64,000 nucleotides of DNA from Ruania alba (GTDB taxonomy: Bacteria; Actinomycetota; Actinomycetes; Actinomycetales; Beutenbergiaceae), in assembly GCF_900105765.1 (NCBI RefSeq), contig NZ_FNTX01000002.1:2108001-2172000 (forward strand), given 5' to 3'. Shown piece by piece: positions 4,025-37,134 of the stretch; the first letter of the stretch is position 1; every line of letters begins with the position of its first letter. The translations under genes and the position numbers were made by a program. A model generated the notes under the pieces. That model was given only the letters and a program-made list of their open reading frames with translations, did not search any database and was not told the DNA's origin.

Positions 4025-4041
4025 GACCTCCTCCCCCCCCT

Positions 4042-4101
4042 GCCGAACGCAACCTGGTGCGGCTTCTGCCGCCGAAAACGCCGCACGGGGTTGCGTTCGG
4101 C
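4042..4101. repeat. 60-nt palindromic stem-loop repeat, copy 1
   Basis: Perfect 13-bp arms GCCGAACGCAACC (4042-4054) and GGTTGCGTTCGGC (4089-4101) enclose a second 7-bp stem GTGCGGC (4057-4063) with GCCGCAC (4080-4086) and a 16-nt loop containing GCCGAAAA. A second copy of the same length lies at 11607-11666. The two copies agree at 42 of 60 positions when aligned without gaps, and one outer-stem base pair differs in a compensatory way. It sits 17 bases after the typA stop, behind a pyrimidine-rich tract, so it may act as a terminator or belong to a dispersed REP-like family. Confidence 0.75.
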
Positions 4102-4131
4102 GGTGGGTCGGGGTGGGAGAGGATGGATGGG

Positions 4132-11666: not shown

Positions 11667-11764
11667 GCTAGCGTGTGTGCATGGGGAACGCCGGGTTGAG
11701 GGTCGCGCCCGGTGGTGTGCCGGGTGACGTTCCGACGGCGGAGGAGCGTGTCGGTCAGTCGGCA

Positions 11765-12433
11765 ATGAGACTCGTATCGGTGCGGGTGGTGCTCCTCGTC
11801 GCACTGCTGCTGGCCGCGGTGCCGGCAGCCACCCAGGCTTACGACGAGCCGCTGCACCAGTTGCGTGCGGACCTGGAAACGGGACGGGTCACCTCGATGG
11901 AGATCGAGCGACCCGAGCCGGGGATGGGTGCTGAAGGGCAGTTCGCCGTGCGTTGGGACGCGGGTCTTTTCGACTCCATCACACGGTACGAGTACTCCTC
12001 CGAACGTGACATCGACGAGGGCGCCGAGCTCGTCGCTCAGGCTCGGGCCGCCGGGGTGGATGTCGCACTCGTTGATCTGGACAACGACGTCGTCGCGATC
12101 GACGGACTCTTCGCCCGGCAACTGGCCCCGGTCGTCCTGCTGGGGTGGATCGGTGCCCTGGTATTCCTCGCCAAGGGACCGCAGCCCTGGTTCGCCACGA
12201 AATGGGCATGGTTCTGGTTGACTGCGGCGATTCCGGCGCTGTGGTTGGTCTTTCTGCTCGCGGAGCCGCGCCCATTGTGGCTGAGCGCCCGCCTGGCCCG
12301 GGCCGGGCGGGAGCCGGTGCAGCTGCTCCAGCAGCGAGACGCGCGGCTCACCGGCGGATGGGCCTTCCTCATCGGCTGTGTCGCGTCCTCGATCCTGGCG
12401 TGGTCGGGGCTGCCGATGCTGTCCGGCTGGTAA
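11765..12433 (+). CDS. Putative membrane protein of unknown function
   Basis: The predicted product has about 222 residues. It has an N-terminal hydrophobic segment (SVRVVLLVALLLAAVPAATQA) and a soluble region of ~85 residues that would face outside. Three further hydrophobic stretches follow: LAPVVLLGWIGALVFLA, WFWLTAAIPALWLVFLLA and GWAFLIGCVASSILAW. I do not recognise the family. The start is uncertain: ATG 11765 gives the best signal-anchor, but ATG 11681 in the same frame also works and neither has a good ribosome-binding site. The gene ends 35 bases before the left inverted repeat of the island. Confidence 0.6.
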   Translation: MRLVSVRVVLLVALLLAAVPAATQAYDEPLHQLRADLETGRVTSMEIERPEPGMGAEGQFAVRWDAGLFDSITRYEYSSERDIDEGAELVAQARAAGVDVALVDLDNDVVAIDGLFARQLAPVVLLGWIGALVFLAKGPQPWFATKWAWFWLTAAIPALWLVFLLAEPRPLWLSARLARAGREPVQLLQQRDARLTGGWAFLIGCVASSILAWSGLPMLSGW

Positions 12434-12468: not shown

Positions 12469-12487
12469 CTAGGGCGTGTTGAACAAG
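12469..12487 (+). repeat. Left terminal inverted repeat of the island
   Basis: CTAGGGCGTGTTGAACAAG matches the inverted right end at 24811-24829 in the first 14 positions and again in CAA after one mismatch. It lies 35 bases after the stop of the membrane protein gene. The motif resembles the ends of IS5-type insertion sequences in general form; that relation is from memory and untested. Confidence 0.7.
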
Positions 12488-12859
12488 TGGATTCGGCTAG
12501 GTGCGTCTTGAACGGTGACGCAGTAGGAGATCTCCGACGACGTGTGGGCTGTGATGGAGCCGTTGATGCCGACGGTATCGGACCGGTCGTGGTGGTGCTC
12601 CGGCATGCGGCCAGCTCCACCGAGGCGCCGGTGAAGATCTTCACTCTCGGAACCCCGGCGGATGTCGCCGGGGTGTGGGTGGCGGGCGAGCAACTGGACG
12701 CGTGGACGCTCGGGCAGTGGATACCCCCGCCTGAAGGTGGAGCGGTTCGCCGCCCACAGCCGGTCCACCCACGGATCCAGTGCTACTGCCACGTCTGCCG
12801 GTTGAAAGCGCACCGCCACTGTCCGACGGACACCCGCACCCTCGGACGGGTGTCCACGA
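12488..12859. other. Non-coding stretch inside the left end of the island
   Basis: These 372 bases between the inverted repeat and the stop codon of the large phosphoesterase gene hold no gene I can support. A minus-strand frame of 116 residues (12469-12819) and a plus-strand frame both stay open, but neither shows a recognisable motif or a start signal. It could be a decayed transposase or the ordinary 3' flank. No strong terminator hairpin was found for the gene ending at 12860. Confidence 0.4.
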
Positions 12860-15800
12860 TCAGCCGCTGCAGACGGCGTCCTCAGGAGCGACCGTCACAT
12901 CGACGTGACCACCACCCGGGCTGAAGGCGATGCAACGGGTCTCCTCGGCGGCGCCGTCCGGACTGGTAGCGCGGTACTGCAGCAGTTGACGATCGGACCG
13001 CTTCAGGTCGAACGGGCCGGAGTACACCTCCCAGTCGCTCTCGTCGCCGAACCGGTACTCGATGTGACCGATACCGGCTCCAGCATCCTCGGCAGTCAGC
13101 GTGACCGTGACCCGATTGCCACCCGTGTAACTGGCCGTCGTGGTCGGCTCCTCGACGACTGTCACTACCCGCGATCCGATCGCTTGGTTGCCATTGGTGT
13201 CTTCGACGACATAGGTGAGTGCGTACACGCCAGGAGAGGTGGTGTCGACACCGCCGATGACTTCGATGCGGTCACTCACATCACCGTCGGTGCTGTCCAC
13301 GGCGCTGACGCCCTCGAGCACATCGAACGCCGTGCCCACGGTGACAGTCGTAGCCTCCGGGATCGTCAACACCGGCGGCTGGGTGTCCGTGCCGGCGGGC
13401 GTCGCCACGAAGGTGCCGCCGAACTGGCTGATCACGCCCGTGGGTTCGGCCGCCTCCCTGCTCACCGCGATCCAGGCATATCGCTGCCCTTCCGTCAGAC
13501 CGCTCCACGTCACGGTCGCCGGGAAGCCGGACGCCACCGTCTGCGTACCGATGACGTTCTCGGTCGGCGCGGCCACCGCAAGACCGTCCGTGGCGAACGA
13601 CGTCTGGCGGGTGGTCAAGTTGACCGGCACGGTGAGGTTGTCCTCGGCGCCGTTGTAACGGTCGATGGGCTCCGGTGTCGTCTTGGGCGAGCTGCCGTGA
13701 TCGTATTCGGTGGCTCCGAAGTCATCGAGGAACGGTGAGTAGGTGTCGACCGACATCGTGTTCTCCTCGGTGTCGAACTGCAGCATGCGCAGGAAGCTTG
13801 CGCCGAGGGCGAGCTTGTCTGTCGCGAGGTGATCCCACAAGCCGTCGCCGTCGACGTCGATCTTTCCCGCGTCAGCTCCGGTTCCGACGATGCACTGCGT
13901 CGCGGGGTCGAGCCCGGCTGCGGCGCAGCGCTCGGGTGTGAACACGCGCTCTGCCGGAACCAGGTACCCCTGGTAATCGGCGAGCATCTGTACCACGCGG
14001 GTGGTCCCGTCAGAACTACGGACCGTCTCGACGTTCGTGCCCACGCCGTGGAAGTGACCGCCGAGCACCAGGAAGACGTTCTCGTTGTTCCTGATCACCT
14101 GGTCGTACAGTCTGCCTCCGTCGGCGCCCCGCGCTGCGTTCCGTCCGTCAGGCTGGCTCGAGGCGCCGAGGTAGCCGTGAGTGGTAAGGATTCCGTTGCG
14201 GTCACTGAACCGTTCGAAAACAGAATCGGCCCAATCGACTTCCTCGTCCGTCGCGCCGTAGGACAGGCCGACTGCGACGAAGTCGAGGCCACCGGCAGAG
14301 AAGAGTACGTAGCTGTTCGAACTGTCCTCGCCGCGGGCGGTCACTTCACCGGTATCGGGATCGGTGACCTCGTCGATGGCGTGGTATGAGGCGTCCTCCG
14401 GCCACAGTGTCTCCGCTTGCTCGTAGTAGGCCGATGCCGGGAAGAACTGGGCGAATGGAGACAGGGGACCGTTGTGGTTGCCGTTGTGGTTGTCGTGGTT
14501 CCCTGCCACGGTCTGGTTCGGAATGCCGGTGCTCCATAGCGACTCGTGGACCTCGCGTGCGATCTCGTATTCGCTCCGCACCTGTTCCTGGATGCCCGGG
14601 ACCTCGCCGTCTGCGGTGGTGTAGTCATAGACGGACGACCCGTCCATCGGGTCCTCGGCCTCCGGATCGAACTGCAGGTCGTTGATCGACACTTCGCTGT
14701 TGATGACGTCTCCGGTGTTGGCCACGTAGCTGATGCTGCGTTCCTCCTGGTTCGCCGCGATCCACTCGTTCTGGGCCAGGAGGGCCTCGCGGAAGACCGC
14801 GGATTCCTCCGGGGTGTTTGTAGCGCCGTCGATGTGCTGCCAGGGCAGGCTGCTCGGCCAGCCGTGGTCGCTGCCGGAGGCGACCTCGGTCGTGTACTGC
14901 TGGTCGGTGTAGTGCACGAAGGAGAAGTCGTAGTCCTCCGGGTCCTCGAACCTGTCCCTCGCTTCTGGCAAGCCCGCGGAGGCGTCCCGCGGTGACAGGT
15001 TGTCGAGGAACGGATCCTCTGCGGTGACCAGCACGTGCGCCACGGGGCGCTCAGCATTGCTGGTGTCGATCATGCGTGGCTGTAGCTCTCCCTGCAGGTG
15101 CGTGTCATCATCAGCCACGCCCGATGCCACATCGATCATGTCCCACTGCTCGCTGTTGACGTCCCAGGTCCACAGCCGCGCCATGCGGGCCGGGTCCACC
15201 TGGCCGTTCCACAGCAACTGCTGACCACGCTCGCTGCTGGGCAGCTCGACGTCGTAGCGCTGGAACGGGTAACCGCTGCCGGTGGCGGGCGTCTCGACGA
15301 CTTCGCCGTCATCGGGCGTCAGCGAGCCGGTGATCTCGGTGAGATCGTCGATGTCGCTGGTGAAGTCGAGTCCCAGATGCTCCGGCGAGTCGCCGACAGT
15401 TCCCTGCACGCCGCCGGACGCTTCGGTGATCTCGGCCTCCTGGAAGGTGGTCGTGACCTGCTCGCTTGAGCCGGTCGCGATCGCCGAGAGGGTCACGGCA
15501 CCGCTGCCCTGACCGGTGTCAGTGCCCCCACCGGCCGGGATGTTCGGCGAAGTGAACGGGATCGTCCAGTCCAGCGGGCGTCCGAACACATCAACAGTGG
15601 TGATGGCGATCTCGTGGTCGCCGGCGGCCATGCCTGCACCGATGACGTCACCGAGCTCGATCGGCTCACCGTCGAGCAGGTACTGCCATCCCGTCGCAAG
15701 CGTTCGATCGCTGACCCGGACGTCGAATTCCTCGGGTGTGGTCAGGTGCGACCCAGCAGCCGGGTTGGAGGCGATGAGCTCAGGAGAGCCGATCCGATCG

Positions 15801-17442
15801 CCGAACGAATCCCGGTCCAGCTGTGCGGCTTGGTCAGCGCTGAGCGCCGAGCTCCAGATTCGAGCGTGACCGACCGTGACCGCCGCCGGGCTCTCGATGT
15901 CGCCACGGCCCTTCACGTCGGATCCGATGGCGAAGTAGCGCACGTAGGGCTCGATGCTCGAGCCGGCTGTCGGCGCTTTGACGTTTCCGACCGTGTTCGA
16001 GGAGTTGACGGCCTGGAGCGTGCCATCGACATAGAGCGCGACTTGGGTGCCGTCGAACGTTGCAACGACGCTGTGCCAGACTCCGCTATCGATCGGTGCC
16101 GAGGTCACGCTCCGGTAGCCGCCGTTGATGTGGAACGAGGCCACGATCGACGAATCGCTCAGGTGCAGTCCGAAGCCGCCCGCACTCTTGCCGGCACAGA
16201 AGTGCGCGGCGCTGTCCATAGGGAGATCCTCGTGCACCATCACGTCGCACTGCAGGGTGATGCCCTCGCCCGCCCAGGTGTCATCCGACCAGGTCGAGAT
16301 GTCATCAGTGCGCGGCATGCCGGTGTCAGCCCACGCACTCTGGAGAGGGTAGAAGGCATGGTCGTTCGCGCCGTCTGTGGTGTATGCGTAACTGGGCTGG
16401 CTCGCGAACGCGGTGCTGCGTGCGATGTCTGCCGAGCCCGTCACCTGCGGTTCGCGAGCAGCGGGCGAGTGGTCGTGGAACGGGGCATCCGGGTCGGAGA
16501 AGTCGACGTCAAGGACGTCGGCGTGCGGCAGGTCGACGTCAGGGATCGCCGGTCGCTCAGCCCGCCACAGATCCAGTACCTGCTCTTCGGTGAGCACGCT
16601 GCTCCATGCGCGTGAAGCCGCGATGTCGACGTTCCCGGGAGTTGAGAAACCGTCGGCGGTCGGCTGCCCTCCGATACCCCACTTCGGGACCGAATCGACT
16701 CGCAGTTGCGTGTACGGGCCGAGATGATTACGACCGGTTCCGGAACCATTGCCGGGTTCGACCGGAAGCTCCCAGGCGGGCTGACCGTCGAGGTAGAGCT
16801 TGATCTCACCGTCGCCCACGGTCGCTACCGCGTGCACCCATTCGCCGGGCTGCACCGGGATCGGTGCAGTTGCCGTGTTCCGGTGGGCCGACGTCGATGT
16901 GGCCTGGAACCGGAGGAACTCACCCGTTGCCGGCAGGTAGAACCCGTAGCCCTCCGGGCCGCCCGAGCAGATCCGGTTGGTCTGACCCGAGGGAACCGGG
17001 ATGTCGCCGTCATAGCGGAAGAAGCACTCGAAGGTGCCGCCGTCGAGCACGTCTGCTCCGTCGACGTGTCCTGGGTCGCTGGTCGACCAGGCGTCGGGAA
17101 TGTCGACGACGAGGGCACCCGTGCCAGTGCTGGTCCTGTCGTCGTCGGGCGCGAAGTCCGCGACATGACGCTGCACGGACTCGTCGTACTCGATCGACGG
17201 CGCGACGCCCTGAGTGGTCACGGTGCGGTCCCGCGTGTGCTCGACCGGGCCCTCGGAGGTGAAGTCGATGCTGAAGATGTCGGGCTCAGGCACTGTGGCG
17301 CTCGCGGTCTCAGCGACCGTCGGCTGTGTATCCGGGCTCGCAAGAGCCGGAGTGCTCACCCCCCGATCGCAAGGACCGTGAACGCAGTCACCCCCGCGAC
17401 CACCTTTCGACGGCTGGCTCTGCTCACTTTCCACGTCGTCAT
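12860..17442 (-). CDS. Large secreted LamG/metallophosphoesterase protein, frameshifted in the signal peptide
   Basis: The mature frame encodes about 1,500 residues (numbered here from GTG 17434). Two LamG-like jelly-roll domains lie at about 50-290 and 310-545, and a calcineurin-like metallophosphoesterase domain at about 840-1235 with YTDQQ, NTGDV, GNHDNHNG, TTHGYLG and GGHFHG metal-site motifs. A DUF5011-type domain (about 1350-1431) and an OmpL47-like C-terminal domain follow. The ATG at 17442 has AGGAG at ideal spacing and opens a signal peptide (MTTWKVSRASRRKVVAGV...), but that frame stops after 28 residues. One extra G in the six-G run (C run 17359-17364) would join it to VSTPALA|SPDTQ, a good cleavage site. 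Either the gene is out of frame, the run is a sequencing error, or the length varies. It probably hydrolyses a phosphodiester or phosphomonoester of an extracellular glycan or lipid. Confidence 0.85.
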
Positions 17443-17466
17443 TGGCGTGCTCCTATTAAGTGTCTG

Positions 17467-17495
17467 CATATCGACATTTGTATCGCACTTGTCAA
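17467..17495 (-). promoter_or_regulatory. Sigma-A-type promoter of the LamG/phosphoesterase gene
   Basis: On the minus strand TTGACA (17490-17495) is followed after 17 bases by GATATG (17467-17472), 25 bases before the ATG at 17442 with its AGGAG. The -35 element is a perfect consensus, unusual in this GC-rich window. The surrounding ~100 bases are clearly richer in AT than the neighbouring genes. Confidence 0.6.
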
Positions 17496-18014
17496 GAGGA
17501 AACGGATCTATCGGCTCGTGTTCATGGCGCGTTAACACAGATTTAATTGTCGGCACCACGATTTACTGGGAAGTGGCCAACACGTGATGTCAGGTTTCGT
17601 TGAATCTCTGGAGGTGCAATTGGCTTTGTCGGTCCCGTGCGTGGCGCTTTGGATCTCCTTCTCCGTGCGGTGGCCGAGCCGGGCCAGGCAGGACCGCAGG
17701 CCGGCGTCTGGGCAGGTAACAGTGCCCTCGCTGGCAGTCTGAAGGTAGGCGGTGATGTCAGCGAGTGATCGAGCAGGCGTTCTATCACTGGGTGGTGCGT
17801 GCAGATGATGGGCCGCCGCTGTCTGCCTTTGAATATGATGAGTTCTGCCGGTTGATATAAGAGGGCAGGGAGTAGCGACAGGAGCACCATTCTGGCGAAT
17901 GGTCGCAACCTGAAGATGGTCGGCGATGGTGTCTACATTTCAACCTCGCAGGGTGGCTGTACCCGGCTACCGCTGGCCGGGGTTCTATCGGAAATGGCGG
18001 GCAGTGGCGTACGG
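17496..18014. other. Intergenic region with possible decayed coding sequence
   Basis: No gene can be supported here. A minus-strand frame of 121 residues (17543-17908) lacks motifs and a good start. A short plus-strand stretch at about 17764-17860 reads VIEQAFYHWVVRADDGP in frame and looks protein-like, but is closed by stops on both sides, as a gene relic would be. The region is lower in GC than the flanking genes. Confidence 0.35.
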
Positions 18015-18797
18015 TCAGGTCGACATGCGATCGAGCGCGGCCATCGCGTCAGGAACCCAACCGGCGTCCCACCGGTGCTCGTGCTTGGAGTCGTTGGCGT
18101 AGACGTGCGGAATATCGAGGTCGTCCATGAGGTCATGGGCTGCGGTCAGGTGGTCGTACGTCCACGCGGGCGCGTTCTTGCCGAAGTTGGCGTACCCGTA
18201 CAGGCCGATCCGCGGGGCGGGCCCGAGGCTCTGGCCTCGAGTCCGGAGCAGGTGCGGGATCGCGAAGTCCTGGAAGTGCTCCGCGTTCGGCCAGAAGTAG
18301 GGCATCTCCCACTGGTCGGGCTGTTCCTTCATGATCGGCGCGTCGTGGGCGGCAGCAGCGGTGAACAGGTCCGGGTACCGGAGCAGCAGTTGTAGCGCAG
18401 CCGAGCCTGCCTTGCTGTGGCCGATCAGGAGCCTGGTGGCACCTGGGTACAACCCGTTGATGAACGGCACCACGTCCTCGATGAAGTACAGAACCTGCTG
18501 GAACATCTGCTGGTCCGGTAGGTCCGTCATCCACGGCCAGTCCGAGTAGCTCGGGGCCACGGCCACCATGCCGTACCTGTTGTGCAGATCGTTCCTGAGA
18601 ATCTCATCGAGGCCGTCACCCGAGCGGTGGCTGAGTTCCGGGCTGGACGGCAGCACGAACGTGACACGGCGCGGCGCCGCGGCGTCCGCCGCGTCGGGTT
18701 CGAGTACCCTGATGATCGTCTCGAACATCTGCCGATCCGACTTGACGGTGTACTGCAGGTAGTTCAGCCGCAGGGGGCCGGAGTAGTTCGCAGGCAC
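18015..18797 (-). CDS. Alpha/beta hydrolase (esterase-like)
   Basis: This predicted cytoplasmic hydrolase of 260 residues has the nucleophile elbow GHSKAG near residue 128 inside RLLIGHSKAGSAALQLLLRY, preceded by a typical strand-helix segment and followed by DAP and a C-terminal KHEHRW region that may supply the acid and histidine. It resembles the esterase D / dienelactone-type branch of the alpha/beta hydrolase fold. GTG 18797 is chosen because GAGAGG lies at 18804-18809; an in-frame GTG at 18842 would overlap the permease gene. It is the last gene of a four-gene minus-strand operon with the sugar transporter, so it probably removes an acyl or ester group from the imported compound. The substrate is unknown. 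Confidence 0.8.
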   Translation of the reverse strand: MPANYSGPLRLNYLQYTVKSDRQMFETIIRVLEPDAADAAAPRRVTFVLPSSPELSHRSGDGLDEILRNDLHNRYGMVAVAPSYSDWPWMTDLPDQQMFQQVLYFIEDVVPFINGLYPGATRLLIGHSKAGSAALQLLLRYPDLFTAAAAHDAPIMKEQPDQWEMPYFWPNAEHFQDFAIPHLLRTRGQSLGPAPRIGLYGYANFGKNAPAWTYDHLTAAHDLMDDLDIPHVYANDSKHEHRWDAGWVPDAMAALDRMST

Positions 18798-18825
18798 TGG
18801 CTTCCTCTCAAGGTCTCGAACTTCG

Positions 18826-19680
18826 CTAGGACTTGAGGCCACCGGCGGTGAGCCCGGAGACGACGTGCCGTTGGGCGATCAGAAACAGGATCAGGACCGG
18901 CAGCACCGACAGTGTCGTGGCCGCCATCTGCACGTTCCAGCGCGGCCCTGCCAGCGGATCCTCGAAGAGCGTGAGTGCGACCGGCACGGTCAGGTTCGTC
19001 TGCGAACGCAGGTAGACCAGCGGCTCGAGGAACTGGTTCCAGCTGAACCACGCGGTGAAGACCACGGCTGAGGCGATCGCGGGCCGCACGAGCGGGAGGA
19101 AGATCTGTACCATCGTGCGTCCTCGGCTTGCGCCGTCAAGGGTCGCTGCTTCCTCGAACTCAGCCGGGAGCGTCACGAAGGCTTGACGCAGGATGAACAT
19201 CGCGACCGGCGCAGTAGACAGCAGCGATGTGAACAGCACCAGCGGGAGGTAGGTGTCGATCCACCCGAGCTGTGCCGCCTGTTCGAAGAGCGGCACAATG
19301 ACCGCCTCCGGAGGAATGAAGATGCCACTCAGCAGCACGACGAAGATGATCGCCGCACCCGCAGGACGTACCCGTCCGAGGGCGTAGCCGGCAGGGATCG
19401 CGACCACAAGCGTCAGCGTGCACACCAGAACCATCACGACGACCGAGTTGAGGAGCTGTCGGCCGAAGGGTTGCAGCGTGAAGACCTCGACGTAGTTGCT
19501 CCACTGGAAGAATTCAGGCAGGATCGTCGGCGGATAGCGCAAGATTTCGCTGATCGACTTCAACGACCCGCTGAGCATCCACAGGATGGGGCCGATGAAC
19601 AGGAACGAAATCACGCTGAGCAGCAGGTAGCTCGGCATTCGGCGCAACGCGGCCGAACGGCGTCGATCAGTCTTCTTCAT
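18826..19680 (-). CDS. Carbohydrate ABC transporter permease, MalG-like
   Basis: This inner-membrane subunit of a CUT1 importer has 284 residues and about six membrane segments. It carries the EAA motif (EEAATLDGASRGRTMVQIFLP) that docks to the ATPase. The C-terminal signature WNVQMAATTLSVLPVLILF and the GLTAGGLKS tail fit the MalG side. It overlaps the partner permease gene by 14 bases. The protein is very similar in layout to the permease at 54647-55480: both share EILxxPPTI, VFxLQPF and LEPxVYL. No ATPase gene is present in the island. Confidence 0.93.
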   Translation of the reverse strand: MKKTDRRRSAALRRMPSYLLLSVISFLFIGPILWMLSGSLKSISEILRYPPTILPEFFQWSNYVEVFTLQPFGRQLLNSVVVMVLVCTLTLVVAIPAGYALGRVRPAGAAIIFVVLLSGIFIPPEAVIVPLFEQAAQLGWIDTYLPLVLFTSLLSTAPVAMFILRQAFVTLPAEFEEAATLDGASRGRTMVQIFLPLVRPAIASAVVFTAWFSWNQFLEPLVYLRSQTNLTVPVALTLFEDPLAGPRWNVQMAATTLSVLPVLILFLIAQRHVVSGLTAGGLKS

Positions 19681-20590
19681 GGAAGACCAGCCTCCTTCGG
19701 ATCAACCAGACGATTCCGATGAGCACGAGGACGAGCGCGAACAGGAAGACGGCGAGTGCGGCGGCGTATCCGATGTCGTTGAGCCGGAACGCCTGACGGT
19801 AGATCTCGAAGGCCAGCACCGAGGTCTGCACGCCCGGTCCGCCGTTGGTGAGCAGCAGGACAAGTTCGAACACCTTGAAAGAGCCGCTGATCATCAGCAT
19901 GAACACCATCAAGACTGCTGCCGAGATCTGCGGCAGAACCACGTGGCGGAACCGCGCCCAGCGGCCCGTGCCGTCGACGCGCGCCGCGTCAATCAGGTCC
20001 TGCGGCACCCCTTGCAGAGCCCCCAGGAAGATCATCACGTTGATGCCGACGTTCTTCGTGACCTGGATGACGGCGAAGACCGCCAACGTAAGCCAACCGC
20101 CGCGCAGCCACGGTATCGGCCCGAGGCCGAATACCCCCACGATCCCGTCGAAGATTCCCTGCGGCTGCAGGATGAATCGCCAGACAAGAGTCCAGGCCAC
20201 CGTGGTGATCAGGGCCGGGATGAAGATCGCCGAGCGGAAGATGTTGATACCCGGGAGCGGTTGGTTGAGCAGCATCGCCAGGGCCAACGCCAGGACGGTC
20301 CCGACGACGCTGAGCACAATGACCAAGAAGAAGGTATTCGAGAGGATGATCGACATCTCTGGATCGCTCACGATCCGGAGATAGTTCTCCCACCCGATGA
20401 ACTCTCGCGTCCCGGCGAGAACGTTGACTCGGGTTGCGCTGAGCTGGATGACGCCGCCCACGGCAACGAGTCCGATGATGAGCAGGCCCAGCGTCTGCGG
20501 TGCGAGCAGTAGGTACCCGAAGGTGTTCCGCCCGGCGTCGCGACTGCTGCGACGACGCCGGGCGGAACCCTGCTGGAGCGATAAGGCCAC
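19667..20590 (-). CDS. Carbohydrate ABC transporter permease, MalF-like
   Basis: This first permease subunit of the island importer has 307 residues. A basic N-terminus is followed by the first membrane segment (FGYLLLAPQTLGLLIIGLVA), a periplasmic-type loop around a conserved YLRIVSDPEM, and the EAA motif (DAARVDGTGRWARFRHVVLP). The conserved VLLLTNGGPGVQTSVLAF segment marks the MalF/UgpA subgroup. It follows the binding-protein gene by 18 bases and overlaps the MalG-like gene. Confidence 0.93.
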   Translation of the reverse strand: MALSLQQGSARRRRSSRDAGRNTFGYLLLAPQTLGLLIIGLVAVGGVIQLSATRVNVLAGTREFIGWENYLRIVSDPEMSIILSNTFFLVIVLSVVGTVLALALAMLLNQPLPGINIFRSAIFIPALITTVAWTLVWRFILQPQGIFDGIVGVFGLGPIPWLRGGWLTLAVFAVIQVTKNVGINVMIFLGALQGVPQDLIDAARVDGTGRWARFRHVVLPQISAAVLMVFMLMISGSFKVFELVLLLTNGGPGVQTSVLAFEIYRQAFRLNDIGYAAALAVFLFALVLVLIGIVWLIRRRLVFHEED

Positions 20591-20608
20591 GTTCTGATCC
20601 CCTGCCTG

Positions 20609-21907
20609 TCAGCCCAGGAGCGGGTCGATGTCTCCACAGACACTGGTCAGCGCTTCCTGCACGTCTGCCCCCGGCTGGTAGAGGTTGAGGTCCAACGACG
20701 AGTTCAGTGCGTCGGCGACCGCTGAGTTGTCCTCGGCAACCGGGAACACCTGACCGTTGGTCGTGATGCCGTCGATGATCGGCTGCACCAATTCGGCGGT
20801 GAGCACGTCCGAGTTCTCGACGAAGGTCCCCGGCACCAACAGACTTTCTCGGATCGGCGGAAAGGCACCGGAGTACTCTGCCATCGCGTCCTTGGTCGCA
20901 AGGAAGGTAACGAACTCGGCGGACTCCGCGGTGTGGTTCCCAGCAGCGAGCGCGACGATCGCCGCCTGTCCGGTGGCCACCACGTCGCCGGCAGGGCCGG
21001 CAGGGGTCGGGGCGATGCCCCACTCGAAATCCACCTCGCTGAGGTTCCCACTCGAGCCGAGGAACGCCGAGGTTGCCCCGACCTGACCGCCCCAGAAGTC
21101 GACCTGCCTGCCGGGGACGGGCATCGAGCCATCCTCGAACGTCATGCCGTGGAACATCGACATCGCTTCCACCATCTCCGGCGAATCCATAGTGCAAGTG
21201 GTCGCATCCTCGTTCCAGGGGGAGGCGCCATAGGCCTCCATGTACGGCAGCAGTCGTGTCCAGTTCTGGAAGTCAAAGTCGTTGAGCGCGTAGCCGGGCA
21301 CCTCGAGCGCATCTCTCAGCTGCTGGGACGTTTCTCGAAACGCCTCCCAGGTCCAATTGCCTTCGGCGATGAGTTCCTCCGGATCCTTCACGCCGGCCTC
21401 GGCGTAGAGGTCCTTGTTGAAGTACATGATCAGTGGACCGGTGGAGAACGGGACCCCGTAGACCGCCTCGCCGTCCACCCAGTTCTCCAGCAGAGACGGG
21501 ACGAGGTCGGGAAAGTCGAAGTCGGGTGTGGCGTCGATCGCCTCGCTGAGGTCGACGAGTGCACCCGCGCTGACATACTCGCGGCTGCTCTCGACCGGAA
21601 GCCAGCTCACGTCCGGCGGGTCACCTGCTGCGATCTGAGTCGTAAACAGCGTGTCGAGGTCCGCGAGGTTGAAGCTTTCGATTGTGACGCTGGAGACTCG
21701 AGGGCTGGCCTCGGCGAACTCGTCGCCGAGAGATTGGAACATCCCGACATGGTCGGGACTGGCCGACCAGATGGTCATCCGGAGTTCGACATCATCGCCA
21801 GTCGACTCCTCGGTGGTGCCACCGTCCGACGTGCCCGTGCACGCCGCTACCAGGCTCATGGTCGCGAGCGACGCGGCCATGAGCAGTGCGCGGGAGTGCT
21901 TACGCAT
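20609..21907 (-). CDS. Sugar-binding lipoprotein of CUT1 ABC transporter
   Basis: This extracellular solute-binding protein (family 1) of 432 residues captures the substrate for the two permeases behind it. The signal peptide MRKHSRALLMAASLATMSLV ends in the lipobox LVAAC, so it is anchored as a lipoprotein. LRMTIWSASPDH, QIAAGDPPDVSWLP and WTWEAFRETSQQL are typical of the family. ATG 21907 has AAGGAGGA at ideal spacing; the open frame extends upstream without a start signal. The protein has exactly the same length as the binding protein at 56421-57719, and both end in a similar C-x-x-x-D-P-L-L tail. Confidence 0.94.
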   Translation of the reverse strand: MRKHSRALLMAASLATMSLVAACTGTSDGGTTEESTGDDVELRMTIWSASPDHVGMFQSLGDEFAEASPRVSSVTIESFNLADLDTLFTTQIAAGDPPDVSWLPVESSREYVSAGALVDLSEAIDATPDFDFPDLVPSLLENWVDGEAVYGVPFSTGPLIMYFNKDLYAEAGVKDPEELIAEGNWTWEAFRETSQQLRDALEVPGYALNDFDFQNWTRLLPYMEAYGASPWNEDATTCTMDSPEMVEAMSMFHGMTFEDGSMPVPGRQVDFWGGQVGATSAFLGSSGNLSEVDFEWGIAPTPAGPAGDVVATGQAAIVALAAGNHTAESAEFVTFLATKDAMAEYSGAFPPIRESLLVPGTFVENSDVLTAELVQPIIDGITTNGQVFPVAEDNSAVADALNSSLDLNLYQPGADVQEALTSVCGDIDPLLG

Positions 21908-22000
21908 GGTGATCCTCCTTGATTGGGTAGCTGGGTGCAGCGTTGCCGAGAGCTGGTGAAACGTGCGGGCCGAGTCAGCGGCGTGCATCAGTGCGAGACG

Positions 22001-22031
22001 AGTATAACGCTGAACCAGAATCGGAAGTCAA
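22001..22031 (-). promoter_or_regulatory. Promoter of the island ABC transporter operon
   Basis: On the minus strand TTGACT (22026-22031) is followed after 19 bases by TATACT (22001-22006); an 18-base spacing to TTATAC is also possible. The element lies about 95 bases upstream of the binding-protein start, back to back with the plus-strand promoter at 22069-22096. Confidence 0.55.
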
Positions 22032-22068
22032 CCCCTCGAGTCCGTTCGCCTGCTCCGAGTCTGACTTG

Positions 22069-22096
22069 TTGACATAGCAGTCAGTGGAGGCATAAT
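22069..22096 (+). promoter_or_regulatory. Promoter of the 309-residue protein gene
   Basis: TTGACA (22069-22074) and CATAAT (22091-22096) are separated by 16 bases, giving a near-consensus housekeeping promoter about 80 bases before ATG 22176. Immediately before that start, CAGAA (22162-22166) and TTCTG (22171-22175) form a small inverted repeat across the ribosome-binding site, which could influence initiation or be an operator half-site pair. Confidence 0.55.
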
Positions 22097-22175
22097 CTCC
22101 CCTAGAACTACCCGAGGTGTGGCGCCAGTATCGCCCGTAGCGCGTCACTTTAGCGATTTACCAGAAGGGATTCTG

Positions 22176-23105
22176 ATGAGGCGAGTCGTCGCCTATGGCC
22201 ATGAGCTCGAGCGCTTCGACCCGTTGGCACGGGTCGTGACGCTCGACGACTTCGACACCGGCTTCAACGGATGGATGGATCTGACTCCGAACTTCGTGAA
22301 CGCCGACTACGAGTCGTTCGACAGTGCGGTCGACCTGACCAGTTGGGCGCCGGCCATGCTCAGCTCGGCGCCGATGCGCTTCGCCGCCTCGAACGGTTCG
22401 ATGGACGGCACCTACTCTCTGAAGCTGACGACGGCGCCAGCGGCTGCCCCGCACACCGAACCGCCGGCCGACGGCAGCATGGGGGTCGTTGTCAAACGGC
22501 TGTCCCGGTACGGCGATCCGAGTCAGATCCAGATCGAGGCGTGGTACTCCTACACCCCGGCACAGGATCGGGTCGGGATCGGTGAAGACGACATCCGGGC
22601 ATTCGGCTTCTACTTCGACGTTCAGGACCCGCAGCACCGCTACATGCCAGGGGTGCGCTACGTCAATTCGCTCGGCGGCAAACTTGTCAAGCGCTGGCAG
22701 TACTGGAAGGCAACCGACGGCGTCACGCATGAGAGCTGGAACTACGGAGTCTCCCGCGGGTGGTGCAAGCCGGGTATCGACAATCTCTGGTACGGCCAGC
22801 GCTACGAGGACGGCTCGTCCGACGGCTACCAATGGGTGCCCGACGGCGAGCAGGACCTGCTGTACAACGAGAGCCCGGACAAGCTGAACTGGCTCTACTT
22901 CCGGCTCACAGTCGACGTGCGCAAACGCGAGTACATCGAGCTGCAGAGCATGGACCGGGTCTTCGACCTGCGGGGGATCGCTCCGACTCTGTCCGCCCCG
23001 TACCGGGCGATCGACAATCTCATCAACCCGATTTTCTACGTCGAGGCGGACACGAACCGCTCCGTGCACCTGTTTCTCGACTCCGTCCTGTACTCGACCC
23101 AGTGA
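22176..23105 (+). CDS. Conserved hypothetical protein of sugar-transport context
   Basis: The product has 309 residues without a signal peptide. It begins MRRVVAYGHELERFDPLARV and soon shows VTLDDFDTGFNGWMDLTP, a beta-rich segment like those opening carbohydrate-binding or jelly-roll domains. Aromatic residues are abundant in the second half (RWQYWKATDG, ESWNYGVSRGWCKPGIDNLW, LNWLYFRLTVDVR), consistent with a sugar-binding surface. I do not recognise the family with confidence; a DUF6772-like protein is a possibility. ATG 22176 has AGAAGGGA at good spacing; the frame opens earlier, at 22119. It diverges from the ABC operon and is followed 29 bases later by another unknown gene, so they probably form one transcript. 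Confidence 0.7.
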   Translation: MRRVVAYGHELERFDPLARVVTLDDFDTGFNGWMDLTPNFVNADYESFDSAVDLTSWAPAMLSSAPMRFAASNGSMDGTYSLKLTTAPAAAPHTEPPADGSMGVVVKRLSRYGDPSQIQIEAWYSYTPAQDRVGIGEDDIRAFGFYFDVQDPQHRYMPGVRYVNSLGGKLVKRWQYWKATDGVTHESWNYGVSRGWCKPGIDNLWYGQRYEDGSSDGYQWVPDGEQDLLYNESPDKLNWLYFRLTVDVRKREYIELQSMDRVFDLRGIAPTLSAPYRAIDNLINPIFYVEADTNRSVHLFLDSVLYSTQ

Positions 23106-23134
23106 CACCGGTCCCAAATCGAAGGCGCGACATC

Positions 23135-23461
23135 GTGCAGACGACACACACATCCGTCCTGGCCCGCCGAGTGTGGATCCGCGGCCCCCATGCCACGCTG
23201 CCGTACGAGGCGGGCTGGGCAACCGAGGCGCTGTTCTTCACCCAGGTTGAGGGCGACCACCCTGAGCTCACCATCAGTACCGAGATCTCGCCGGACGGGA
23301 TCACCTGGGTGCCCTGGGGCGAGCCGGTCACGTTAGCGGAGCCGGACGCGATCGCCGCCACCGCACTGACCCGCTTCGGAAGTTGGGTACGGCTCGTGCT
23401 CACCGGTGCGAGCGAGAGCAGACCGGCACGGGTGCTCGTCCACATCTCCCTCAAGGGGTAA
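23135..23461 (+). CDS. Small conserved hypothetical protein, beta-rich
   Basis: This gene encodes 108 residues with alternating hydrophobic strands (ELTISTEISPDGITWVPWG, SWVRLVLTG, ARVLVHISLKG), as in a single beta-sandwich domain. No signal peptide, membrane segment or known catalytic motif is visible. GTG 23135 has GAAGG at 23121-23125. It follows the 309-residue protein closely and precedes the LacI regulator. It may be a partner of the preceding protein; the function is unknown. Confidence 0.6.
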   Translation: MQTTHTSVLARRVWIRGPHATLPYEAGWATEALFFTQVEGDHPELTISTEISPDGITWVPWGEPVTLAEPDAIAATALTRFGSWVRLVLTGASESRPARVLVHISLKG

Positions 23462-23492
23462 GGCATGCCTCCCAACCGCGGTCCGGAGTTCG

Positions 23493-23502
23493 GAAGATCT
23501 TC
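23493..23502. promoter_or_regulatory. Palindrome upstream of the island LacI gene
   Basis: GAAGATCTTC is a perfect 10-bp palindrome, with TTCGAA nearby at 23510-23515, in the 146-base gap before the LacI start at 23608. It is a plausible operator for autoregulation, but no second copy was found at the transporter promoter, so the assignment is weak. Confidence 0.3.
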
Positions 23503-23607
23503 TCTCGTTTCGAACGTGCCGCACCATCGGTCGATACTGTCAAGAACGCGGCGTTCAGCATCATCGACCGATGTGGCCGATGGCTAGAAGCGAGAGAGGG
23601 AGACCTA

Positions 23608-24633
23608 ATGGGTAGCACTGCGAGGCGGGCGCCTCGGCTCGCGGAGGTCGCGAAGCTCGCCCAGGTCTCCACCGGCCTCGTGTCGCGCGTCGTCAACGAC
23701 GACCCGACCCTCCGGGTGCGCGCAGAGACCCGTCAGCGGGTCCTCGACGCGGTCAAGATGCTGAACTACACGCCGGACATGTCGGCGAGAGCGTTGCGCA
23801 ACGCCCACACCGGGATGCTGGGCTTCGCGCTCCACCACGCGAACGACCCGATCTACATGCAACTCGTGGACGAGGCCCAGACGCGGGCGTCGGAACGGAA
23901 CTATTCGTTGTTCCTCCTCAACACCGCTGAACTAGCAGACCGGGGGGATGCCTTCCGGGCAATAGTGCTCGGCCGACGCGTGGACGGGCTCCTGATCCAG
24001 CTCGGTGTCGATGCTGACGAGAGTCCGTTGCGAGAGGTCGCGCGTGCCGTGCCCTCTATCGTGTTCGGTGCGGACAGGGCCGATGATCTCCGCACGATTC
24101 GCCTCGATGATGTGGCTGCAGCACGGATGGCGACCCAGCACCTGATCGACGCCGGTCACACGGCCATTGCCTACCTCGGTGGCGGGGGGTCATCGTCGCG
24201 CCGCCGGTATGACGGCTACTGTGCGGCGCTTGCCGATGCCGGCCTGCCGGCGCAGGCCCCGACCGAGGCTGGCTGGATGCCGGACACCGCACACGATGCG
24301 ACAGTGAGGCTGTTGCGCGCCCAGCACGGCATCACGGGGATCGTGGCGGTCACCACCACCACGGCGCTCGGTGTGCACTCCGGCATCGTCGCCGCCGGGT
24401 ACACGATCCCCGATGACATCTCGTTGGTCTCCGTGCACGACACCTGGTTCGCAGGGCACTTGAACCCGCCACTGACAGCGGTGGCGTTGCCACTGCCCGA
24501 CGTCGGCCGGCTGGCCGTGGATCTGTTGATCAAACAGATCGACGCCCCGAGCCCGGGCGAGGTCGTGGTCGACGTCCCAGCGCCCCGGCTGATCGTCCGC
24601 GGATCGACCGGTGCACCTCGGGCAGCCCGGTAG
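23608..24633 (+). CDS. LacI family transcriptional regulator (island)
   Basis: This DNA-binding repressor of 341 residues is expected to control the island catabolic genes in response to their sugar ligand. The N-terminal LacI helix-turn-helix lies at about 10-35 (RLAEVAKLAQVSTGLVSRVV) and is followed by the hinge helix and a periplasmic-binding-protein-like sensor domain (MLGFALHHANDP, GRRVDGLLIQLG, RLDDVAAARMATQHLIDAGH). ATG 23608 follows GAGAGGGAG, and the frame opens upstream at 23383 without a better start. It is the last gene before the right end of the island. Confidence 0.93.
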   Translation: MGSTARRAPRLAEVAKLAQVSTGLVSRVVNDDPTLRVRAETRQRVLDAVKMLNYTPDMSARALRNAHTGMLGFALHHANDPIYMQLVDEAQTRASERNYSLFLLNTAELADRGDAFRAIVLGRRVDGLLIQLGVDADESPLREVARAVPSIVFGADRADDLRTIRLDDVAAARMATQHLIDAGHTAIAYLGGGGSSSRRRYDGYCAALADAGLPAQAPTEAGWMPDTAHDATVRLLRAQHGITGIVAVTTTTALGVHSGIVAAGYTIPDDISLVSVHDTWFAGHLNPPLTAVALPLPDVGRLAVDLLIKQIDAPSPGEVVVDVPAPRLIVRGSTGAPRAAR

Positions 24634-24765
24634 TCCTCGCGCTGGGCGCGCCCCGCTGCCCGACCATCTGCAGTGCTCCTCCATGTCTGAAGGTCCCAGG
24701 AGGGCATTCAGGTACCGATCTGCACGTCAGACACGGTTGTCTGCACGCGTGGCGGCGCAGGGCCA

Positions 24766-24787
24766 GGGACTCCTGGCATAGAGTCCC
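24766..24787. terminator. Short hairpin downstream of the island LacI gene
   Basis: GGGACTC (24766-24772) and GAGTCCC (24781-24787) form a perfect 7-bp stem with an 8-base loop. There is no T run behind it on the plus strand apart from TTCCTTT about 15 bases on, so terminator activity is uncertain. Another small palindrome, CAGACA/TGTCTG, lies at 24728-24743. Confidence 0.35.
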
Positions 24788-24810
24788 AGCCTGAGTGCTG
24801 ATTCCTTTGT

Positions 24811-24829
24811 GTTGATCAACACGCCCTAG
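24811..24829 (-). repeat. Right terminal inverted repeat of the island
   Basis: Read inward on the minus strand this is CTAGGGCGTGTTGATCAAC, 17 of 19 positions identical to the left end at 12469-12487. It contains the 14-bp perfect palindrome GTGTTGATCAACAC. The outermost CTA is also the complement of the TAG stop codon of the neighbouring nucleoside hydrolase-like gene. Confidence 0.7.
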
Positions 24830-25878
24830 CGCCGCGGAGCGTGCGGCACCCGGGTCGAGGCCGGCAGGGCGCCCCAGCGGGCCGTCGGCCCATCCATCGA
24901 CCGGAGTGCGTCCGCACGCTCAGAAGAGACCACCGGGAGGCGTCGGAGCCATCCGTCCAGCTCACGGGCGAGCTGCTCCGGCCCTACGCGGGGGATCGCG
25001 TACTTGTGCGGCCCGCCGGGTTCGGGGTGGAAGTGGTTCGTGCCGTCGTCGTCCAGGGTGAGCCGGCCGGGCTCGCTCCATTCGACCAGCTCGCACTCAC
25101 CGAAGGCAGCCAGGTACACCGTCAGCGGATCCCAGCTCGGGCGCCCCGTGCGCCCGGCGAACTCCTCGAACAGCCGGAACGCGAGCGCCACCGGGCTCTC
25201 CTGGCCGAGATCGTCGGCGAGGTCGCGCCCGATCACCACCTGATCGGCCGCCTCGAAACCCACGAGCTCGATCGGGCCCGGCCACCGCTCCAGCACGCTG
25301 CGCGTCAGGGCCGGCCGCCAGGCCAGGTTGTGCTCGCGCCCGCTGGGGAACACGCCGCCCATCATCACCGTGCGACCGACGGAGCGGCGGATCAGATCGA
25401 CCCCGGCCAGGTCGCTGTGCTCGTCCGGTCCGGAGTCGAGCAGACCCACCAGGTTGTCCATGAACCCCACCGACGCGACCGTCACGCTCCCGGGCGCGGC
25501 CGCTGCCAGCGCACGCCGTAGTGCCGCGGTGCCGTCCGACGGGTGCCGTCGGGGCACCTCGGAATAACTCTCGCACAGGGTGCGCGAGTGGTCGTAGGGG
25601 CGCCGGTCCGGCTCCTCCATGATCCCGCCACGCACCCCCACGGGCAGGTCGACGTCATACGGGTAGGTGACCACCTCGGCACATCGCGCCCCCCACTCGT
25701 TGTCCGCGTTCACGCCGAAGCCGATCAGGTCGATCTTTCCGGCCGTGTGCAGGGTGAGCGCGATGGCCAGGGCGGCGACGTCGTCGACGTCCATGTAGAA
25801 GTCGCTCTCCAGATAGAGCGACGGCGCGTCATCTCGGTGTGGGGCCTCGCCCTCGCGAACATCGACAGCGAGATCCAT
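24826..25878 (-). CDS. Nucleoside hydrolase-like protein
   Basis: This 350-residue protein belongs to the inosine-uridine-preferring nucleoside hydrolase fold, which cleaves N-ribosides with a bound calcium. The metal-binding start of the fold is seen in ESDFYMDVDDVAALAIAL, which has the DVDD cluster but a longer spacing than the classical DxDxxxDD. MMGGVFPSGREHNLAWRP matches the family GG(x)nEWN-type region, with N and E retained. Substrate preference cannot be predicted and some relatives are not nucleosidases. ATG 25878 has AGGAGG upstream; the longer frame to 26163 has no start signal. Its TAG stop lies inside the right inverted repeat of the island, so the insertion kept or supplied the stop. 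It diverges from the giant Tat-exported protein gene. Confidence 0.8.
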   Translation of the reverse strand: MDLAVDVREGEAPHRDDAPSLYLESDFYMDVDDVAALAIALTLHTAGKIDLIGFGVNADNEWGARCAEVVTYPYDVDLPVGVRGGIMEEPDRRPYDHSRTLCESYSEVPRRHPSDGTAALRRALAAAAPGSVTVASVGFMDNLVGLLDSGPDEHSDLAGVDLIRRSVGRTVMMGGVFPSGREHNLAWRPALTRSVLERWPGPIELVGFEAADQVVIGRDLADDLGQESPVALAFRLFEEFAGRTGRPSWDPLTVYLAAFGECELVEWSEPGRLTLDDDGTNHFHPEPGGPHKYAIPRVGPEQLARELDGWLRRLPVVSSERADALRSMDGPTARWGALPASTRVPHAPRR

Positions 25879-25971
25879 CGCTCCTCCTAGGAATCGTTCC
25901 GGCCGGCCGTGCCCCGGATTCTGCCAGCCCACCCGTCCCGCCGCGCCGCCGCGCGCGGTGCGCAGCCGGAC

Positions 25972-26022
25972 CTGTCCGGTACCGGCCACGCGATGCGTGG
26001 ATACCTGACCGGTTCCGGACAG
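25972..26022. promoter_or_regulatory. Nested palindrome between divergent genes
   Basis: CTGTCCGGTACCGG (25972-25985) and CCGGTTCCGGACAG (26009-26022) are inverted repeats with 13 of 14 matches. Between them CCACGC (25986-25991) and GCGTGG (25995-26000) form a second perfect inverted repeat around GAT. The element lies about 95 bases from the nucleoside hydrolase start and 170 from the Tat-protein start, a position suited to an operator that controls both. The 316-base gap holds no gene. Confidence 0.45.
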
Positions 26023-26194
26023 ATCACCTCCGACCGCTGGCTGAGACCACGACCCACCTGGCAGCGTCGAAACGATTCGTGGTGGCGGGAGAGCACGGGT
26101 CGATGACGACACCACCGTCGGCACCGGACACGACGTCCGTGCCGTACGTGTTCCGCACCGCACCGCGACCGACCCCCAGTGAATGGAGAGACAG

Positions 26195-29100
26195 ATGGTC
26201 CCCGGAACCGATCACCAGGTCCTCGACGCCACGATGAGACGACGGTCCTTCCTCACTCTGGCGGGTGCGTCCGCCGTCGCAGTGGCAGGCAGCGGCTACG
26301 TGCAGACGCTGCCGGCGGCCGCCGACACTCACGACGGCGCCCTGGGCAGCTGGACCTCGGAACGCATCATCACCAGTGGTACCGCTCGTTCCTGGACCTT
26401 CGACGACGATGCCGGCGGTTGGCTGGTCGAGAACGGGTTCGCACCGGTGCAGACTGGCGACGGTGTGCTGCGCACCACGGTGACCGGCAGCGATCCGACC
26501 CTCGCGCTCGACGAGATCGAGCTGCACGGACCGCACGCGAGGTACATCCGGGTGCGGATGCGTGTGCGCCCCGAGGATGCCGAGGTCTCCGACCCCAAGC
26601 TCGTGGTGGTCTTCGCCACCCGCGAGTCGGAGGGTCTGGACGAGCTGAAGACCGTGGCATTGCCCGTGACGGCGGACGGTGAGCTGCACGAGTACCAGAG
26701 CGACCTCACCCTCAACCCGCTGTGGCGCGCCGGCAACGTGAACCAGCTGCGCCTGCGGCTGGATGGGGTGGGCGAAGGCGCCCAGGTCGAGATCGAGGAG
26801 CTGCGGTTCGAGCTGCAGATCTATTCCGACGCGCACTGGTTCGTCGAGCCACTGACCGAGGGCGAGACCGCGCTGGAGTGGCGCGCCGGGCCACCGGTGC
26901 GGACCGAGCTGGACGGGATGCACGATCGGATCCTGCGGGTGCGGGTACGCCTCACCCAACCCGCACCCCCGGCCGAACCATGGCCGGACCCCCGGCTCGG
27001 GCTGGCCTTCGAGACCGCGGAGTCCCCCGGGTTCAACGGATCGAAGATCATCTGGCTGCACGTCCCGCCCTTCGACGGCGAGTACCACGACATCGTCGTC
27101 GACCTCGGTGCCGAGCACGGGCTGTGGCGCAACGGCACCGTCACCCGCGTGCAGCTGCGGGCCACCACGCCACCGGTAGGAAGCAGTGCCTGGGACTTCG
27201 AGACGGTCCGGATCGAACGGATGGGCAGCCGCCTCGCTGTCCGAGCGCTCACCCTGGACGCCGGCGCCCTGCACCAGGGCGACACCTTGACGCTCAATTC
27301 CGCCGTGGTCAACGTGGGTGCGCAGGCCTCCACCGAGCTCGGTGCGAACCTGACCCTCCCGGCGGATGTGACGCCGTCGGGGGAGACCACCCGCACCGTG
27401 CCGCCCCTGCAGCCGTTCGCCGAGGCGCACCCGCTCACCTGGGAGGCCGAGGCCGGCGGCGAGACCCCTGACGTGGCCACGCTCGACGTGCCCGACATCG
27501 GCTTCCGGAGCGGTGCAGTGGTGCCGATGGCGGCCCTACCGGACTCCGCCGCGATCGATGCCTGGCGAGGGAGCCGGGTGTTCGCCCACGAGGACGGGAA
27601 CGTCGTGGTGCTCAGCAACGCCGCCGTTCAGGCGATCTTCGTGCGGTCAGCGCGCGGATTCACCCAGTTGCTGTTCCGGGCACGCGTCGGGGACACCTGG
27701 CAGCAGGTGGCGACGTCCCAGCCGCTCTCCACACTGGTGGTCGCCGGTCCCGGCGGTGCCGAAGTCCTTCCGGTGGTTCCCGACTCGGTGCAGTTCGACG
27801 TCGGAAGTGAACGGGTGGCGAGCTTCACCGGATCGGTCACCGACTCCGGTGGAACCACCTGGGACGTGAACCTGGCGTTCTCGCTGCGGGTCGGCCGGGC
27901 CACCGATGCTCTCGAGGTGACCTATCAGGTGACCCCGGACTCCGACGCCGAGCTGGTCTCCTTCCAGGGCCCGTCGCTGACGGCCGGGGAGGGGTCCTTC
28001 GGCGGGTCGAAGTCGGCCGCTCTCGTTCCTGGTGTGGAGTGGCTCATCGACGACGAGCACTCCTCGAACACGCTGGACATCTTCCCCCGGCCGCCCATCG
28101 GGTGGGGGAGCGACCTACGAGTCGTGCCGCATCCGCTGAACGTGACCATCCCGCTGATGGCCGTGGCCGCCGACGGTGTGGTGGTGGGCGTGCAGTGGGA
28201 CACCACCCAGGAGTGGGACGGGGAGCACCGCTATCCGAGCGCCATGTTCGCCTCCCCGAACTGGGTGGCAGGGCAAGACAACCACGTCATGGCCCTGTCC
28301 CTGCCGACCAACGACGACCTGCCGCCACTGGCGGCACACCCGGGCGCACCGTATGCGGCCACGGCAGGACGCACGCTCACGGCGACCGCCCACTACACCG
28401 CCACGGTCTCCGACGACGTGCTCTCCGCCGTCGACACCTGGCACCGCCTGTACGGGGTTCCTGAGCCGGCGGAGAAGCCGTTCTCGTTCACCGACGAGCT
28501 GGCCCTGATCCGTGACTCCTACCTCACCTCCTACTGGGTGGAGGCGTCCGAGGACTTCCACGGTGTGCACGGGCGAGGCACGAACTACAACGTGCTGCCG
28601 GCGATCGCGCTGCTCGTGGCCAGCCACCTCTCCGACGATGAGGAGGCGCGTGCCCTCGCCCTGGAGTGCCTCGACCGCTACCGGCGCCGGGTCGTGGCCG
28701 AGAAAGGGCCGCAGGGTCTGTCCAATGCCGACAACGTCAACGTGGCGGGGTGGATGCACACCGGAGCGTTCTATTTCGGCCACCTCGAGGAGGCGCTGCC
28801 CGAGTGGGCTCAGCTCGCTGCCAACCTCATCGACACCCAGCAGGACGGTGGCAGCTGGGGCTTCACCCAGCGCAACTGGCACGATCCGATGCTCGGCCCG
28901 CTCGACTCGCCCATCCTGGGGCGGTCGGCGCGCAATGCCGCGCACCTGCTGCGCTACGCCCGGCTCGTCGGTGATGCTGAGGCCGAGGACGCCGGTCTGC
29001 GTGGTGTGGAGTTCGTGAACCGCGCGCAGGTGCCGCGCGCGGCGCAAGGGTGGGAGGTTCCGCTGCACGCCCCTGACGTGCTTGCCGCGGCCTACGGAGT

Positions 29101-29893: not shown

Positions 29894-29899
29894 GCCGTG

Positions 29900-29938
29900 G
29901 ATGACCGCATGTGGCCACTGTGGCCGCATGCGGTCATC
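29900..29938. terminator. Strong hairpin terminator after the Tat-exported protein gene
   Basis: GATGACCGCATG (29900-29911) pairs perfectly with CATGCGGTCATC (29927-29938). After one mismatch, GGCCA (29913-29917) pairs with TGGCC (29921-29925) over a 3-base loop. The 17-bp stem begins 7 bases after the stop codon. It would separate this gene from the sulfatase gene that starts at 30016. Confidence 0.75.
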
Positions 29939-30015
29939 TCCGCGCCGGGGTGTCGTCGTCGCGGCCCGGCTGTGGCAGCCTCGAGCGTGGGTGGCGTGGG
30001 CCGCTGGGACGGGAG

Positions 30016-31752: not shown

Positions 31753-31781
31753 CCCTGCCGGGTGAGGGCCGCCGTCGGGAA

Positions 31782-34602: not shown

Positions 34603-34629
34603 GTGCCTTGTCCTTTCGGCTGGCGGCGG

Positions 34630-34670
34630 CGGTCGAGGTGCCGGTGGGTGCTCTGCCGGCACCTCGACCG
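34630..34670 (-). terminator. Strong hairpin between binding-protein and sulfatase genes
   Basis: CGGTCGAGGTGCCGG (34630-34644) and CCGGCACCTCGACCG (34656-34670) form a perfect 15-bp stem with an 11-base loop. The pairing can extend by about six more pairs through one G-T wobble. It lies 34 bases after the binding-protein stop in the minus-strand operon. It could act as a partial terminator or mRNA end-protector that keeps binding-protein mRNA more abundant than the enzymes downstream. Confidence 0.7.
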
Positions 34671-34703
34671 TCGCCGTGGCGCTGGTCGTGCGATGCAGCG
34701 GGG

Positions 34704-37123: not shown

Positions 37124-37134
37124 GGCAGCGGCCC

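Follow-up and report, generated by a model that had tools for sequence, protein, structure and literature searches.

Mobile insertion cassettes (MICs) consist of passenger genes enclosed by IS-type terminal repeats without a working transposase, and a transposase in trans would be needed, as set out in the passages on them in PMC3129680 and PMC4133298. MIC231 of Bacillus cereus, which has IS231 ends, is a named example cited in a passage of PMC2266710. Transporter ISs are covered in part of PMC3129680, and composite transposons or transposable modules, in which a segment is bounded by ends of the same IS, in part of PMC3281130; a section of PMC6304161 holds a parallel among Tn3-type elements. 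Here, we analysed a stretch of 64,000 nucleotides from Ruania alba, hereafter the window, which contains a block of about 12.35 kb (12473-24825). We estimate at roughly 0.6 the probability that this block is a decayed, immobile element with IS5-family ends that moved to a CTAG site as a whole segment.

The block has outward-facing, matching IS repeats around genes that do not serve transposition and, like a MIC, it would need a transposase in trans, the only transposase sequence inside being about 25 codons with a stop. The genome holds a single copy of the element and, for the cognate transposase, only this relic. The block therefore appears to work like a decayed MIC, probably derived from a transporter-IS-like group, and does not qualify as a working MIC. 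It differs from MIC231 in its IS5-family ends, its 12-kb cargo cluster and the decayed transposase start in its left end. Three plasmid relatives of its ends (loci L097, L099 and L100) are of the transporter-IS kind and have the same bare right repeat, whereas the block has no transposase and a cargo more than ten times larger. With composite transposons it shares the ends of one IS around a segment and CTAG outside them; however, complete flanking ISs, of which a composite transposon has two, are lacking, since only 120 bp remain on the left and 15-18 bp on the right. The source of the ends shows transposase homology to the IS5 family and CTAG at both borders. No description of this element was noticed in the literature searched. 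The features of the block are as follows.

12469-12472, no strand: left CTAG, flank or target-site copy (five of six complete IS copies have CTAG on both sides)
12473-12592, plus strand: IS5-family left end, with inverted repeat GGCGTGTTGAACAAG and about 25 transposase codons containing an in-frame TAG
12588-12692, plus strand: 3' end (last ~35 codons) of a guanine deaminase gene, joined to the IS relic (by comparison with R. albidiflava)
12860-17434, minus strand: large secreted protein with LamG and Ig-like domains and metallophosphoesterase-like motifs (motifs by eye)
18015-18842, minus strand: esterase (PF00756)
18826-19680, minus strand: ABC transporter permease (PF00528)
19667-20590, minus strand: ABC transporter permease (PF00528)
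20609-21988, minus strand: ABC extracellular solute-binding protein (PF01547)
22119-23105, plus strand: DUF6772 protein (Pfam)
23084-23461, plus strand: small protein with a putative start (weak DUF6385 match, 25.6 bits against a cut-off of 26.8)
23608-24633, plus strand: LacI-family regulator (Pfam; start set by the R. albidiflava ortholog)
24643-24810, no strand: stretch between the end of R. albidiflava homology and the right repeat, no significant match
24811-24825, minus strand: right inverted repeat GGCGTGTTGATCAAC, read inward, with no IS sequence recognised inside
24826-24829, no strand: right CTAG flank, containing the stop codon of the gene at 24826-26163 (minus strand)

The preliminary description, made from the window alone, reported 19-bp terminal inverted repeats with CTAG outside both ends, lying between two convergent genes, and these observations were all confirmed. 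In direct reading the two ends agree at 17 of 19 positions. The exact 14-bp core, CTAGGGCGTGTTGA, occurs without mismatches at 12469-12482 (+) and 24816-24829 (-), and CTAG occupies 12469-12472 and 24826-24829. The left gene stops at 12433 (+); the right gene, 24826-26163 (-), has its stop codon TAG within the flanking CTAG. Many scattered copies of the end sequence, which the same description had named as evidence against its reading, were not seen: in the whole genome of 4,830,506 bp, these two sites, 12.35 kb apart and facing outward, are the only ones with at most one mismatch. A reversed-pattern control also gave two genome sites at this threshold, none of them exact, a result that counts against the reading favoured here.

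The left end is recognisable as part of an IS. The left 122 bp were searched against 72,556 plasmid records and matched IS5-family elements with a best E of 9e-27. There were ten matching records, every one with at least 80% query coverage; eight of them carry an IS5 family transposase annotation, and the four from Microbacterium are 80.3-82.5% identical to the left end. In a complete copy of the IS (locus L098), positions 3-126 correspond to window positions 12475-12592 with 79.8% identity. The frame from 12470 reads VTQ*EISDDVWAVMEPLMPT, the broken start of an IS5-type transposase. Thus, the earlier statement that the block has no transposase stands as regards a functional one, but the left end does carry a decayed transposase start with an in-frame stop.

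The right end is an exact 18-bp copy of the same IS terminus, CTAG included; 2.7e-7 copies of a match of this length, which was chosen post hoc, are expected in 64 kb. No IS sequence was found beyond the repeat on its inner side. The right end was at first considered a proven right terminus (IRR), an assignment that was dropped, as the sequence beyond the repeat resembles neither the left nor the canonical right IS end. Since the repeat alone is kept, left and right IS termini are indistinguishable there. Both ends belong to one IS5-family group. It is this homology to IS termini, and not the repeat statistics, that makes the ends real.

Complete copies of the IS, with both ends, were found in six of the 35 loci scanned. 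They measure 938-939 bp (L098, L101 and L060), 1307 bp (L097 and L099) and 1647 bp (L100). The transposase of the L098 copy (P0002) scores 278 bits against the NCBIfam IS5 transposase model NF033580 (cut-off 110) and also matches PF13340 and PF01609. CTAG stands on both sides of five of the six copies, and the sixth, L099, has ATCAG on the left and CTGAT on the right; we take YTAR to be the border target of the IS5 family. The L099 copy (1993-3318) is flanked by inverted rather than direct sequence (CCCATATCAG...CTGATATGGG). In L097, L099 and L100, of which the first two are near-identical to each other, the IS runs to position 923-927 and is followed by other DNA and a bare right repeat of about 15 bp, a form shared by the right end in the window. 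At locus L175 (2517-8003), a complete IS occupies the CTAG at the stop codon of a gene that is presumably PIN-like, which makes a stop-codon CTAG a natural target; 4.5 kb downstream of this copy lies an isolated right IS end of 58 bp, again with CTAG after it.

An IS5-family transposase with matching ends elsewhere in the genome, as the preliminary description envisaged, was not detected. When a complete transposase of the group was searched against eight Ruania genomes, the only match in the host was the relic in the window (residues 2-27, 81%, one TAG), so that this search found no present source of a matching transposase in the host genome. Other IS5-type transposases, with 39-54% identity, occur in R. 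albidiflava (G001) and in G004, and a 41% fragment in G003; another IS5-type element has left a short DUF4096 fragment, below the cut-off, elsewhere in the host genome. The seven other Ruania genomes yielded no further left end of the IS. Among 396 genomes of the order, the window's own excluded, five hold a single exact copy of CTAGGGCGTGTTGA; matches to the reversed-pattern control, counted by hand, occur in five as well. Of these single copies, one (L054, genome G290) represents a genuine left IS end whose transposase is truncated, and inspection by eye of three frames over 1.3 kb revealed no transposase at the other four. Conserved, truncated MITE-like relatives were also considered on account of nine hits to the first 23-26 transposase residues (G446, G440 and G420). 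This lead was dropped because all nine hits lie at contig ends and represent assembly breaks.

The genes inside the block would serve the use of a sugar or phosphosugar polymer. The large secreted protein, called a phosphoesterase in the preliminary description, matched no Pfam phosphoesterase model at E 0.001, whereas its LamG and Ig-like domains were found with Pfam. Matches to the solute-binding protein occur in 918 of the 72,556 plasmid records, all below 60% identity, and positions 24640-24832 matched none of these records. The DUF6772 protein has matches in nine of 59 related genomes, a count that includes the window's own; identity is 79-91% in three other Ruania genomes.

The same genes occur in the same order in the sister species Ruania albidiflava DSM 18029 (NZ_ATWL01000022.1), where two collinear pieces align with the window, 13144-17618 at 86% and 18021-24642 at 88%. 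In that genome, which has no exact copy of CTAGGGCGTGTTGA, the cluster is an ordinary part of the chromosome, next to a guanine deaminase gene of full length. The preliminary description had held that relatives with these genes inside a larger syntenic block lacking the repeats would speak against it, and R. albidiflava is in part such a case. As it has the genes without the repeats, the cargo and these ends did not evolve together as a standing module.

The left part of the block retains a trace of that neighbourhood. Segment 12588-12690 matches the 3' end of the R. albidiflava guanine deaminase gene (NCBIfam PRK09228) at 81%, and this stub is the only match to that gene in the host genome. 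The junction between IS and deaminase is abrupt and falls at about 12588-12592, within a few shared bases. The block thus carries a scar of the donor neighbourhood, fused to the IS relic. For the LytR-like gene at the opposite border of the R. albidiflava cluster, the best host match is 35%, compared with 73-82% in G004 and G007; a close ortholog is missing in the host and likewise in four other Ruania genomes. The 3' end of the gene for the large secreted protein (12693-13143) is unlike that of R. albidiflava, which has a membrane-anchor-like tail, and segment 12857-13113 matches two places in G002 at 73%.

Divergence at four-fold degenerate sites sets the cargo apart from its surroundings. 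Identity to R. albidiflava at these sites is 0.676-0.761 for seven cargo genes and 0.494-0.572 for seven flank genes on the right side of the window. The cargo is thus closer to R. albidiflava than the flanks are, which points to horizontal acquisition from a lineage close to that species. In this comparison, a gene with matches in two loci entered the count only once, 52137-54863 yielded no row, and two antisense shadow ORFs (48146-52156 + and 57953-59482 +; 0.90-0.91) were excluded, the coding gene being on the opposite strand. The flank DNA at 43001-63000 is 69-81% identical to R. albidiflava in its eight strongest pieces. The G+C content is 64.5% in the cargo, 69.2-70.4% in the conserved flanks and 65.5% in the R. 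albidiflava cluster; low G+C is therefore a trait of the cluster and no evidence of recent transfer.

The insertion site lies in a variable region. The left gene, 11675-12433 (+), is present in six of the eight Ruania genomes, the window's own included, and the right gene in the window's own genome only, being absent from the seven others. Accordingly, an exact empty site was found in none of these seven, all of which are without the right gene. Mapping of the site in the five relatives that have the left gene placed its end at a distance of about 90 bp (G006), 220 bp (G004), 0.8 kb (G007), 5 kb (G002) and 17 kb (G005) from the counterpart of 42985-43022, and in G004 the stretch missing after the left gene is larger than the block alone. 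The short distances show that the adjoining sulfatase cluster is accessory too; the 30.5 kb between the left gene and the gene at 42985, comprising block and adjacent cluster, are accessory. This second cluster (24826-41396) directly adjoins the block and contains a nucleoside-hydrolase-like first gene (below the Pfam cut-off), a large secreted protein, three sulfatases, an MGH1-like glycoside hydrolase, a sugar ABC importer and a LacI regulator.

In the history that we favour, a LacI-regulated cluster encoding an ABC importer, an esterase and a secreted protein, from a lineage near R. albidiflava, would have ended up between an IS5-family left end and a solo right repeat. A transposase recognising both ends, produced by the left IS or by another copy, could then have moved the whole segment, which would have inserted at CTAG between the two convergent genes. 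The transposase would have been lost, afterwards or at formation, through a deletion that begins near codon 25 and extends into the gene for the deaminase, and the element would since have stayed fixed in place. The transposase may have come from the left IS or acted in trans, and the deletion may have preceded or followed insertion. The earlier proposal of a passenger module moved as one unit is thus supported in part, by the ends of one IS5 group, the CTAG flanks and the foreign-looking cargo, but the transposase source that it presupposed was not found in the host genome. That the block went in as a single unit is likely rather than proven.

The strongest competing account is that an ordinary IS5 copy landed at CTAG and that the cargo entered it later by illegitimate or IS-homologous recombination, with deletion of most of the transposase, so that the cargo itself never transposed. 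Flanks and ends would be no different, and a short IS that landed at CTAG and then gained cargo would indeed give an identical sequence. The abrupt junction between IS and deaminase, with its few shared bases, is what illegitimate joining would give, and the failure to find a matching transposase elsewhere in the genome fits as well. On the other hand, a foreign 12-kb fragment would have to be captured separately within a target of at most a few kilobases, and the IS copies that hold passengers before a bare right repeat of this form indicate that carrying extra DNA is a habit of the group. We regard this account as rather unlikely.

Two separate insertions of the IS, one to the left and one to the right of the cargo, both of which then decayed from their inner side, make a distinctly improbable alternative. 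Solo, degraded ends do exist near an IS copy (L175), so ends can arise separately, a point that also counts against movement of the whole segment. The right end retains only about 15-18 bp, and CTAG would be expected outside any copy of this IS. But the genome holds these two ends only, and two random sites in 4.83 Mb would fall within 12.4 kb of each other in about 0.5% of cases and face outward in a quarter of those. Moreover, the deaminase stub places the left boundary within donor-type DNA, into which it cuts.

Taken alone, the 14-bp inverted repeat is weak and not significant. With up to three mismatches, CTAGGGCGTGTTGA has nine matches in the window against 4.76 expected, and five of 100 shuffles reach nine. 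Exact inverted 14-mer pairs 0.5-20 kb apart number 43 in the window against a mean of 23.1 (range 11-32) in 20 first-order Markov sequences; a pair starting with CTAG occurs once in the window and in none of the 20. Exact pairs of this length being so common, the repeats might have been coincidental around an ordinary genomic island, a reading already refuted by the match of both ends to real IS termini (E 9e-27 on the left, 18 bp exact on the right). CTAG is strongly depleted in the window as a whole, with 16 occurrences against 77 expected from dinucleotides.

As a relic of mobile DNA, the element is large but of an ordinary type; in a broad sense it belongs to a known kind, IS-bounded cargo elements whose transposase is no longer encoded. 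Here, minimal IS5 ends bracket a whole catabolic cluster, together with a fragment of the donor's neighbouring gene, in a different Ruania species. Such scars are easily missed because no transposase is annotated in them. The comparison also draws attention to an IS5-family group of Micrococcales with varied passengers, among them a CAT-family acetyltransferase gene in one genome. A tentative and, in our view, doubtful extension is that this group specialises in passengers placed between the transposase and a bare right repeat, and has carried up to a 12-kb regulated cluster between Ruania lineages. In that case, the block would be among the larger cargo elements with minimal IS ends. The copy with the acetyltransferase gene (PF00302) lies at 2673-4365 of locus L179 and belongs to the same IS group; its right border is an inverted left end of the IS, about 60 bp long.
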